Below are positions 4,333-7,874 of a stretch of DNA of 64,000 nucleotides, in pieces. Source of the stretch: Pseudomonadota bacterium (GTDB taxonomy: Bacteria > Bdellovibrionota > UBA1018 > CAIMNF01); the NCBI GenBank assembly GCA_027491115.1, contig JAIXWV010000030.1:62001-126000 (forward strand), in the 5' to 3' direction. Under the pieces are notes generated by a model. The model had not been told where the DNA came from, did not search any database, and saw only the letters and a program-made list of their open reading frames with translations. A program made the position numbers and the translations under genes. Position 1 is the first letter of the stretch. Each line of letters begins with the position of its first letter.

Positions 4333-4716
4333 ATGAAATTACCTGGTTACGAAACCACATTCATCACTCGCGTCGATCTGAGCGATGAAGGCCTGAAAAC
4401 CCTCAAAGAAAGACTCTTCGGCATCGTAAAAGCTTACGGTGGCGAACTCGTTTACGAAGAAGACTGGGGCAAGCGTAAGTTCGCTTACGAGATCGAGAAA
4501 GAAACCCGCGGGCACTACACCCACTTCGTGTACACCGGCAAAGGTGACATCGTTCACGAAATCGAGCGGAACCTCCGCCTGCACGAGTCCACCCTGCGTT
4601 TCATGACCGTCAATCTCGCAAAAGAATTCGAGAAAGACGTGTTCACCAAGGAACTCGGTAACGGAACCCCCCTGAAGCGCGAAGAGCGCGCACCCCAAGC
4701 TGAAGTCAGCGCCTGA
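4333..4716 (+). CDS. rpsF: 30S ribosomal protein S6
   Basis: Ribosomal small-subunit protein that binds 16S rRNA together with S18. The sequence begins MKLPGYETTFIT and contains the S6 segments YGGELVYEEDWGKRKFAYEIEK and HYTHFVYTG-like strands; residues after about 105 form a charged tail. An AAGGAG ribosome-binding site lies 6 nt upstream of the ATG. It heads a classical S6-S18-L9 cluster. No ssb gene lies between rpsF and rpsR, unlike many bacteria. Confidence 0.98.
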   Translation: MKLPGYETTFITRVDLSDEGLKTLKERLFGIVKAYGGELVYEEDWGKRKFAYEIEKETRGHYTHFVYTGKGDIVHEIERNLRLHESTLRFMTVNLAKEFEKDVFTKELGNGTPLKREERAPQAEVSA

Positions 4717-4733: not shown

Positions 4734-5072
4734 ATGGCAAAAGAAATGTCTGAAAAGAAAGAATCCCGCTACAACGACGATATGGATGACGGAATGGACG
4801 AAGGCGGCGGTGGCCGTCGCGGCCGTCGCTTCTCAAGCAGCAACCGCAAAAAAGCTTGCCGCTTCACCGCAGGAGAAGAAGATGCTGCGAACATCAGCTA
4901 CAAGAACCCCAAGTTCTTGTCCTCCTTCATGACCGAGCACGGAAAAATCGTGCCCCGTCGCGTGACCGGAAACTGCGCCCAGATCCAGCGCAAACTGACC
5001 ACCGAGATCAAGCGCGCCCGCAACTTGGCGCTGCTCGGCTTCACCTCGATCGGCCCTAACTCGAATTACTGA
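4734..5072 (+). CDS. rpsR: 30S ribosomal protein S18
   Basis: Small-subunit protein that forms a heterodimer with S6 on 16S rRNA. Core S18 motifs are [19 protein letters not shown] (residues about 42-60), [17 protein letters not shown] and [11 protein letters not shown]. The first 27 residues are an acidic, Gly-rich extension longer than in E. coli. The zinc-type CxxC pattern is absent (single Cys at each position), so this is a zinc-independent form. GGAGG lies upstream of the ATG; rpsF stop to rpsR start is 17 nt, and the next gene follows after 5 nt. Confidence 0.98.
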
Positions 5073-5077
5073 GAGGG

Positions 5078-5983
5078 ATGAAGTCCAAACTTCAAAATCG
5101 CGGGGCGATTCCAGGGCAACTTGCCCGGATCGCCCCGTTTTTTTTACCATTCATTTTTTTCCAGAGCGCGATCTTTGTGATGCTCTCCCCCCTGCCGTTG
5201 TTTGTACTCACTCTTCGTGGGGCACTACCCTGGGCCCTCGGCGCCCTGGGCTCCAATTTAATCCTGACCCGGATCACCGGAGCCAATCCCAATGAACTCC
5301 TGGCACTCGGAGTCTTCTGGTTCGGAGTCGGCAATCTGTTTCCCTACCTGATCCGCAAGTCAGGCAAAGTCCAATCAAGCCTCGTTTATGCCTTCATTTA
5401 CATGATCCTGATGTTCGTGGGCGCCCTCCAACTCCGAGCCCATGATATCGGCCTCGGTGTGGTCGATTACTTACGTTCCGAGATTTCGATCGGAATGGAC
5501 CATCTGATCAACCTTCCCAACAGTCCGGTCAAGAAATTGGTCGATGAACAGGGCCGCGACGCCTTGTTTCGGCAGCTCATGACCGAGCTCCCCTCAGGCC
5601 TTCTGATCGCCCTCTTGCTTTCTCTCTGGGTGAACCTTCTGTTCGCCTCCCAAATCGTGCCTTCTTTTCTTTCCAAGACCTTTTGGAACAAGTTCAAGAA
5701 TCCGGATTGGCTGGTTTGGCCGACACTCGCCAGCGCGGCCCTTTACGCCTTTGGCGAGCATGCGCCGTATTATTTTGGACTGAACCTGTTTAAACTACTG
5801 ATGGTCTTCTATGCATTCCAGGGACTCAGTGTCATCGGCTTTTTGATGACCCGGAACGGAATCACCGGCCTGGGCAGGATCCTGATTTTTTCAGTCGCCC
5901 TCTTCCTCGCCCTCCCCCTGGTTCTGGCCCTGGGCTTTTTCGACCTTTGGTTTGACTTTCGCAAGAAATTCGGGCAAATCTAA
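5078..5983 (+). CDS. DUF2232/YybS-like polytopic membrane protein
   Basis: A 301-residue hydrophobic protein with about 7-8 membrane segments; function unknown. Position between rpsR and rplI is typical of the YybS/DUF2232 family in Firmicutes and deltaproteobacteria, and the N-terminal pattern (hydrophobic helix, then LSPLPLFVLTLRGALPWALG at residues 36-55) fits it. The ATG at 5078 has only GAGAGGG directly upstream and probably depends on coupling to rpsR, 5 nt away. Oddly, residues 8-23 are encoded by a strong terminator hairpin and T-run. Later starts (GTG 5177, ATG 5180) would remove the terminator but also the first membrane helix that the family normally has, so I prefer 5078. Confidence 0.8.
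   Translation: MKSKLQNRGAIPGQLARIAPFFLPFIFFQSAIFVMLSPLPLFVLTLRGALPWALGALGSNLILTRITGANPNELLALGVFWFGVGNLFPYLIRKSGKVQSSLVYAFIYMILMFVGALQLRAHDIGLGVVDYLRSEISIGMDHLINLPNSPVKKLVDEQGRDALFRQLMTELPSGLLIALLLSLWVNLLFASQIVPSFLSKTFWNKFKNPDWLVWPTLASAALYAFGEHAPYYFGLNLFKLLMVFYAFQGLSVIGFLMTRNGITGLGRILIFSVALFLALPLVLALGFFDLWFDFRKKFGQI
5101..5145 (+). terminator. strong intrinsic terminator within the 5' end of the DUF2232 gene
   Basis: CGGGGCGAT (5101-5109) pairs perfectly with ATCGCCCCG (5129-5137). Inner pairs CC/GG and GGGC/GCCC extend the stem, and eight T residues follow (5138-5145). It lies 28 bp after the rpsR stop and would end transcription of rpsF-rpsR, but it also sits inside the downstream reading frame. 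It may act as an attenuator that lets only part of the transcripts reach the membrane-protein gene, rplI and dnaB. Confidence 0.85.
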
Positions 5984-6013: not shown

Positions 6014-6463
6014 ATGTTAGTGATTTTAAAAGAAAATGTAGAGAATCTCGGCCGCATCGGTGATGTGGTGAAAGTTGCCGATGGCTACGCCCGCAACTTC
6101 CTCATCCCGAACAAGAAGGTCGTCGCCGCCAGCCAGAACAACCTGAGCGCGATCGAGCACCAGAAGAAAATGCTCGAGAAGAAGCGTGCAGCTGAAAAGC
6201 TTTCCGCTGAAGAACTGGCGAAGAAAATCTCCGCCTTCACTTGCAACATTTCCCGCAAAGTGGGCGAAAAAGACAAGTTGTTCGGATCAGTGACTGCGAA
6301 CGACATCGCTGACACCCTCCAGGCCGGTGGCATCACCATCGAAAAGCGCCTGATCCACATCAAGGACCCGATCAAGGCTCTTGGCGTTCACACTGTTGAA
6401 ATCAAGCTCCTCCCTGAAGTCGTGACCAACCTCAAGGTTTGGGTCGTCAAAGAAGAGGCTTGA
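6014..6463 (+). CDS. rplI: 50S ribosomal protein L9
   Basis: Large-subunit protein that binds 23S rRNA at the base of the L1 stalk. It starts MLVILKENVENLGRIGDVVKVADGYARNFLIP, the invariant L9 N-terminal domain, followed by the long connecting helix (residues about 42-75) and the C-terminal domain with GSVTANDIAD. The 149 aa length is typical. AGGAG lies 6 nt before the ATG. dnaB follows after 4 nt. Confidence 0.98.
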   Translation: MLVILKENVENLGRIGDVVKVADGYARNFLIPNKKVVAASQNNLSAIEHQKKMLEKKRAAEKLSAEELAKKISAFTCNISRKVGEKDKLFGSVTANDIADTLQAGGITIEKRLIHIKDPIKALGVHTVEIKLLPEVVTNLKVWVVKEEA

Positions 6464-6467
6464 TCGT

Positions 6468-7874
6468 TTGAAAAAACTTCCGCAGGATCTCGAGGCCGAA
6501 CGTTCGGTCCTGGGCGCCGTGCTGGTCAACAACAGCACGCTCGACCAGGTCCGTGAGATCGGTCTCGAATCCCGCGATTTTTTTCTCGACGCCCACCAGA
6601 AGATTTATGAAACCGGCTGCCACCTGCTTGACCAGGGAAAGCCGGTGGATCTCGTCACTCTCACTTCCGTCCTCCGCGACCGCGGCTGGTACGAGAATAT
6701 CGGCGGAATGCAAACGCTGACCCATCTGTTCGACCAAGCTTCCTTCCACATTGCCAACGTCGTTCACTATGGCAAGATCGTACGCGAAAAGGCTCTTCAG
6801 CGTCGTTTGATCGAAACCTGCTCTTCCATCATGGAAGAAGGCTTCACCGGAGTCGAAAACACCGAAACTTTCATTGACGCCGCGGAAACCAAGATTTTCG
6901 AAGTTTCACAGAACCGCGCACAGCGTTCCTTTTCCACCCTTTCAGAAGTCATCTCGGGCAACATGACCCGGGTCCAGGAACTCTTCCTGCAAGGTGGAGA
7001 GGATGTCGTCGGTCTCCCCACCGGCTTCCACGAGTTCGACAAGATCACGACCGGTCTGCACCCCGGTCAAGTGACCATTCTCGCGGCACGTCCGGGGATG
7101 GGGAAAACCTCCTGGTTCATCTCGGCACTCCTTCACTCCGCGGTGGTCAAAAAGTCCGTTGCGGCCCTGTTCTCCCTCGAAATGTCGAAGGAAGAGCTCG
7201 GTTTCCGGTTTTTCTCGGCCATCAGCAGGATCGATTCGAAGCGTCTCAAGACCGGAGCTTTGTCCAAAGAGGAGTTCCGCCGCCTGATGAACGCCGCCGA
7301 ACAGCTCGGCCAGGCACGTATCCACATCGACGACACCCCTGCACTCACCGTGATGGATCTTCGCTCCCGATGCCGGAGACTCAAGGCAAAAGAAAAGGAT
7401 CTCAACCTGATCGTGATCGACTACCTTCAGCTCATGCGGGGTCCGAAGTCGAGCCAGGCCGGAGGGAACCGCGAACAGGAGATCTCTGCGATCTCCCGGG
7501 GTTTGAAGGAACTCTCCAAGGAAGTCGGCGTTCCGATCATCGCCCTTTCCCAGTTGAGCCGCCAGGTGGAATCCCGGACCGACAAGCGGCCCATGCTCTC
7601 CGATCTCCGGGAGTCGGGCGCCATCGAGCAGGACGCCGACTTGGTTTGTTTCATCTATCGCGACGACTACTACAACAAAGATTCGGATGAAAAGGGCGTC
7701 GCCGAGATCATCATCGCCAAAAACCGTCACGGCGAGCCGGGAACCGTCAAGCTCGCGTGGCTCGGCCAGTACACTCTTTTTGCGAACCTCACCGAGGATT
7801 CCTCCTCGTCTTCGGGCCCGTCAGGTGCTGTCGTGCGTCGCCCGAGCTCTCCACCGGACGAGTTCAGCCTCTAA
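6468..7874 (+). CDS. dnaB: replicative DNA helicase DnaB
   Basis: Hexameric 5'-3' helicase that unwinds DNA at the replication fork. The N-terminal primase-interacting domain covers about residues 1-105 (LEAERSVLGAVL), and a RecA-like ATPase domain about 180-450. Walker A is ARPGMGKTS (207-215), Walker B is LIVIDYLQLM (about 314-323), and the H4 region is DLRESGAIEQDADLV. The 468 aa length equals E. coli DnaB; no intein. The start is TTG at 6468, 4 nt after rplI, with AAGAGG upstream; no ATG gives a full N-terminal domain. rplI-dnaB is a common pairing. Confidence 0.97.
   Translation: MKKLPQDLEAERSVLGAVLVNNSTLDQVREIGLESRDFFLDAHQKIYETGCHLLDQGKPVDLVTLTSVLRDRGWYENIGGMQTLTHLFDQASFHIANVVHYGKIVREKALQRRLIETCSSIMEEGFTGVENTETFIDAAETKIFEVSQNRAQRSFSTLSEVISGNMTRVQELFLQGGEDVVGLPTGFHEFDKITTGLHPGQVTILAARPGMGKTSWFISALLHSAVVKKSVAALFSLEMSKEELGFRFFSAISRIDSKRLKTGALSKEEFRRLMNAAEQLGQARIHIDDTPALTVMDLRSRCRRLKAKEKDLNLIVIDYLQLMRGPKSSQAGGNREQEISAISRGLKELSKEVGVPIIALSQLSRQVESRTDKRPMLSDLRESGAIEQDADLVCFIYRDDYYNKDSDEKGVAEIIIAKNRHGEPGTVKLAWLGQYTLFANLTEDSSSSSGPSGAVVRRPSSPPDEFSL

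Follow-up and report, generated by a model that had tools for sequence, protein, structure and literature searches.

The DNA analyzed here, a stretch of 64,000 nucleotides (the window), comes from the genome of a member of a family of uncultured Bdellovibrio-like bacteria (Bdellovibrionota). The region of interest has the gene order tatC, rpsF, rpsR, DUF2232, rplI and dnaB, and the features discussed below are collected in Table 1. The fourth of these genes encodes a member of the DUF2232 family (PF09991), with a match of 92 bits compared to a curated cut-off of 27.8. Its ATG at position 5078 is separated by 5 nt from the stop codon of rpsR (5070–5072), and the two genes are co-directional.

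Table 1. Features of the rpsF–dnaB region in window coordinates.
Feature	Position	Strand	Remarks
rpsF (ribosomal protein S6)	4333..4716	+	Pfam Ribosomal_S6, E 6e-26; first gene of the transcription unit
rpsR (ribosomal protein S18)	4734..5072	+	Pfam Ribosomal_S18, E 1e-24; directly precedes the predicted terminator
DUF2232 membrane protein gene	5078..5983	+	Pfam DUF2232, E 5e-26
Predicted terminator hairpin	5101..5137	+	Within codons 8–20 of DUF2232
T8 tract of the predicted terminator	5138..5145	+	Encodes Phe-Phe of the conserved PFF that opens the first membrane segment
TTTGACTTT-N12-RGGCAA element, candidate rplI-dnaB promoter	5951..5977	+	Last DUF2232 codons; synonymous-site conservation; equivalent to G000:C1:67951-67977
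rplI (ribosomal protein L9)	6014..6463	+	Pfam Ribosomal_L9 domains
dnaB (replicative helicase)	6468..7874	+	ORF, named from its sequence; 4 nt after rplI

A GC-rich hairpin and a run of eight T residues together span codons 8–23 of DUF2232, with the stem beginning 28 nt past the rpsR stop codon. The hairpin folds with −30.9 kcal/mol (z = −5.6), a value equalled by none of 200 dinucleotide shuffles, and it ranks first in stability among 186 terminator-like sites identified on both strands of ∼280 kb of the genome. When the protein was recoded synonymously 1000 times, 999 of the variants folded less stably. With a stable, GC-rich stem and a U tract immediately 3′ of it, the site has the features of an intrinsic terminator, exactly as a first-pass annotation of this DNA had claimed. 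The site at 5101–5137 was absent from the list returned by a simple consensus terminator scan of the window, probably due to bulges in the stem, which does not affect the verdict on the hairpin. Clean intergenic terminators in the same genome are spaced 10–32 nt from the preceding gene, which overlaps the spacing of the hairpin behind rpsR in the family (23–44 nt). No terminator at the rpsR–DUF2232 junction was described in the literature searched.

The overlap of the hairpin with the DUF2232 coding start, which the first-pass annotation had regarded as genuine, is borne out by the reading frames of related genomes. Every member of the genus has an open frame with a start close to rpsR. In 11 of 12 genomes, this start is an ATG or GTG located −1 to 10 nt past the rpsR stop codon, and the exception (L009) has a TTG start that overlaps rpsR. 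From the T tract onward, the frame encodes PFFLPxxFFQSxxF..SPLPLF, and families without the hairpin have a matching segment, PFFLSAxLFLSAFF..APLPLL. Thus, the first membrane segment of DUF2232 is ancestral. The annotation had itself named a protein start at 5177 or 5180, with a separate promoter behind the hairpin, as speaking against the overlap; the terminator would then be an ordinary intergenic one. The window contains no in-frame ATG, GTG or TTG between 5078 and the T tract. A simple codon-usage caller did favour 5180. However, a start at 5177/5180 would remove the membrane segment that even the hairpin-less families conserve, no start codon exists there in four genomes (L006, L009, L011 and L012), and the Shine-Dalgarno pairing at this position is weak as well (−2.1). 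We consider such a start very improbable and, from the comparison of these frames, take the upstream start at 5078 to be genuine and the hairpin to truly overlap the beginning of the coding region.

Conservation in relatives, a check that the annotation had suggested, was examined across the order and phylum. The 13 genomes available for the family all have the hairpin at the rpsR–DUF2232 junction, in each case at −18 kcal/mol or lower, and they form a single clade with 100/100 support. In the rest of the order, 9 of 29 are positive at the same threshold, several of them being loose folds. The feature is essentially absent from the other sampled families of the phylum, in many of which the 900 bp upstream yielded no rpsR. 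Elsewhere in the operon, at its other junctions and within gene bodies, one hit occurred among the 100 family windows. Twelve of the 13 family genomes belong to one genus and contain 10 distinct hairpin sequences. The hairpins of this genus share one codon register and an 11-bp stem in which 98.2% of cells are paired, and 7 of the 11 stem pairs are altered on both sides among the 10 distinct sequences, which are compensatory changes. The covariation is 0.547, compared to 0.307 for shuffled sequences (0 of 500 reach the observed value) and a maximum of 0.224 for slid partners; sliding the pairing also lowers the paired share to 41–57%. When the genes were recoded with their own synonymous codons, such that the protein was kept, an equal or better terminator arose in only 0–8 of 1000 recodings per genome, in 11 genomes that include another family. 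We conclude that the stem is under selection as RNA; what is observed here is the sequence, its geometry and its conservation with compensatory changes beyond the protein constraint.

The T tract is weaker evidence than the stem, since it is partly dictated by the protein. PFF is frequent in relatives that lack the hairpin, and L012 and L013 have imperfect T tails. The conserved stem might, in principle, be an RNA structure early in the coding region that delays translation to aid membrane targeting, or a barrier at an RNA 3′ end, with the T tract merely representing PFF codons, which yield T-rich sequence in the hairpin-less relatives too. We regard this as quite improbable, because the stem adjoins the T tract with a gap of 0–2 nt even where its 5′ arm lies in another register (L020, L023, L077 and L080), and because an intergenic version also occurs. 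The latter, in L088, is a canonical terminator 18 nt behind rpsR, with the DUF2232 frame opening 3′ of it. The other clean analogues outside the family (L023, L077, L080 and L084) are in frame; L043 is the same genome as L080, and its hairpin was scored separately. Since the hairpin is located in a ribosomal-protein operon, it could also be conceived as a binding site through which S6:S18 or L9 autoregulates the operon, and in other bacteria S6:S18 binds its own mRNA at a CCG-bulge motif (PMC10931766). However, that motif precedes rpsF, whereas the present hairpin follows rpsR, sequence conservation is lacking in the apical half of the hairpin, and an Rfam search gave nothing above threshold, such that a role of this kind can hardly be credited. 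Weak hairpins (AGCGC...GCGCT) that other families have further along the membrane segment, in its second TTT-rich part, were no better than synonymous recodings and were not counted.

On the basis of these comparisons, we consider it likely that the hairpin and T tract are the intrinsic terminator of rpsF–rpsR, kept while the DUF2232 frame crosses it, and that it acts as a roughly fixed attenuator. The terminator would be held at the usual distance behind rpsR, with the same bases coding for the beginning of the first membrane segment. The majority of RNA polymerases would stop at ∼5145, and a fraction would read through to yield the DUF2232 message; both termination in vivo and the degree of read-through are what we infer from the features above. 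The site lies between co-directional genes, and, as every message for full-length DUF2232 includes the hairpin, the protein would be made only by read-through, which is the arrangement of an internal operon terminator. The Shine-Dalgarno pairing in the window is −9.5, −2.7 and −7.4 kcal/mol for rpsR, DUF2232 and rplI, respectively, and across the family it ranges from −4.7 to −9.5 for rpsR, from −3.2 to +3.2 for DUF2232 and mostly from −5.6 to −8.0 kcal/mol for rplI. Given the near absence of a Shine-Dalgarno sequence at DUF2232, and since a ribosome sitting on the rpsR stop codon falls just short of the hairpin, the latter would rarely be disturbed by ribosomes, resulting in high S6/S18 and low DUF2232. 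The embedded terminator probably keeps DUF2232 expression low. Because termination in an open frame produces nonstop mRNA, such an arrangement is costly and should be selected against, except where DUF2232 is only weakly initiated. From the spacing and the weak Shine-Dalgarno sequence, we expect termination to be efficient, DUF2232 expression to be low and trapped ribosomes to be few; those caught on nonstop mRNA could be rescued by tmRNA, the gene for which is present in the genome.

The expectation about ribosomes draws on E. coli, where termination at tR2 is maximal beyond ∼27–30 nt from a stop codon, terminators within the first 100 bp of a gene are efficient, and a terminator 30 bp past a start codon loses only ∼10% of its efficiency (PMC4824070), a yardstick that may not hold in Bdellovibrionota. 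The stems of the family begin 17–44 nt past the DUF2232 start. The first-pass annotation had proposed that expression could depend on ribosomes closely following RNA polymerase from rpsR, which is possible in principle and made less likely by this spacing and the E. coli data. In such an attenuator, a ribosome that continues from rpsR, or that starts DUF2232 at once, would open the hairpin, and read-through into DUF2232 (and rplI-dnaB) would report how tightly transcription and translation are coupled. The proximity of the DUF2232 start to the rpsR stop codon in most of the genus suits reinitiation, all transcripts for the full-length protein must cross the hairpin, and the E. coli pyrBI attenuator does act via ribosome arrival (cited in PMC4824070). 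However, the stem is out of reach from the rpsR stop codon and so close to the DUF2232 start that a newly initiating ribosome would come too late, the modest loss at 30 bp in E. coli points the same way, the start lacks a Shine-Dalgarno sequence, and neither a pause nor a leader sequence is conserved 5′ of the hairpin. Folding of the leader together with upstream sequence revealed no competing stable structure in 11 of 12 genomes, in all 11 of which the hairpin was retained, so an antiterminator is not evident. We therefore consider a ribosome-mediated mechanism of the pyrBI or trp type unlikely.

Internal partial terminators behind a ribosomal-protein gene occur in the rpsU-dnaG-rpoD and rplL-rpoB operons of E. 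coli. The attenuator proposed here is similar in that a ribosomal-protein gene is followed by a partial terminator and then by genes needed less, some of them for replication; however, the E. coli terminators lie between genes, whereas here protein code is under a double constraint. Methanococcus maripaludis has internal operon terminators (ioTTS) between ribosomal-protein and RNA-polymerase genes (PMC10450193). Partial termination past ribosomal-protein genes reduces the next, non-ribosomal genes in that system, as we predict here, but the ioTTS are archaeal, factor-dependent and defined as intergenic, in contrast to a bacterial hairpin that lies within the first codons of the following gene. 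A similar geometry is that of the tR2 construct W48, with a hairpin ∼30 nt past the start codon (PMC4824070), and termination despite translation, with nonstop mRNA, is likewise predicted here; W48 is artificial, whereas the present hairpin is natural and conserved across a bacterial family. The overlap of terminator and reading frame is shared with the E. coli pyrBI-type attenuator (PMC4824070), which relies on a leader peptide and a regulated pause, whereas here the frame is the whole of the downstream gene, and neither a pause nor a leader sequence is conserved. What is new compared to known internal terminators is that the terminator itself is protein code, with a conserved double constraint.

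The locus thus represents dual coding, in which selection would preserve one stretch in two roles, as an RNA terminator and as a membrane segment; the covariation was gauged against synonymous recoding. It suggests that a compact operon can retain a partial terminator without an intergenic region, and it cautions that start-codon and operon prediction may err at such overlaps. Additionally, the locus could serve as a natural experiment on the ability of ribosomes close to a gene start to prevent termination, in a phylum for which the coupling of transcription and translation is apparently unstudied.

The opposite end of DUF2232 carries a second conserved element. In ∼41 genomes of the order (seen in L002-L031 and L071-L089, at the 3′ end of the gene), the last codons contain TTTGACTTT-N12-RGGCAATC, nearly invariant at synonymous sites and ending tens of bases or less before the rplI start. 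The Phe codon of the element is TTT in 41 of 41 genomes, compared to 59% elsewhere in these genes, its Asp codon is GAC in 41 of 41 (31% elsewhere), and Arg, where present, is always AGG (28 of 28 genomes, compared to 10% elsewhere); the adjacent Phe and Asp codons vary. TTGACT in the element is a good −35 match, and the −10 part is not canonical. A genome-wide search for TTTGACTTT-N12-RGGCAA returned one perfect match, its own site, and otherwise background; thus, the element is not a regulon motif. De novo promoter motif learning from 90 upstream regions converged on low complexity, and the rplI site scored unremarkably. As the learnt motif lent no support, a promoter function is only suggested, by position and conservation.

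From these sequence features, the 3′ end of DUF2232 may hold a separate promoter that tops up rplI-dnaB expression. If the element is a promoter, the embedded terminator would mainly control DUF2232, and not L9 or DnaB. An effect on the ratio of S6/S18 to L9/DnaB, as envisaged in the first-pass annotation, is therefore conceivable but weakened. More tentatively, and with some doubt, we suggest that DUF2232 carries signals of its neighbours at both ends, the rpsF-rpsR terminator at its 5′ end and an rplI-dnaB promoter at its 3′ end, with the protein produced from rare read-through only and its level set by termination efficiency or by ribosome arrival. Among 17 other genomes of the order, 6 have a terminator after rplI, an arrangement that would suit rplI as a separate unit.

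In other families of the order, the rplI–dnaB interval contains strong terminator-like hairpins, ∼460–520 nt past the rplI start (L014, L016, L019, L022, L029 and L031). They are absent in the family of the window, and the border of the transcription unit seems to have shifted. Two further observations concern the assemblies. L041 (CALPVV020000080.1) is titled Nitrosovibrio sp., yet its DUF2232 clusters with the present Bdellovibrionota genus, and it is probably a mislabelled assembly. Contig 2 of the window's genome (L165 and L166), only 28% of which is predicted as coding by a codon model of the remaining contigs, is possibly foreign or misbinned.
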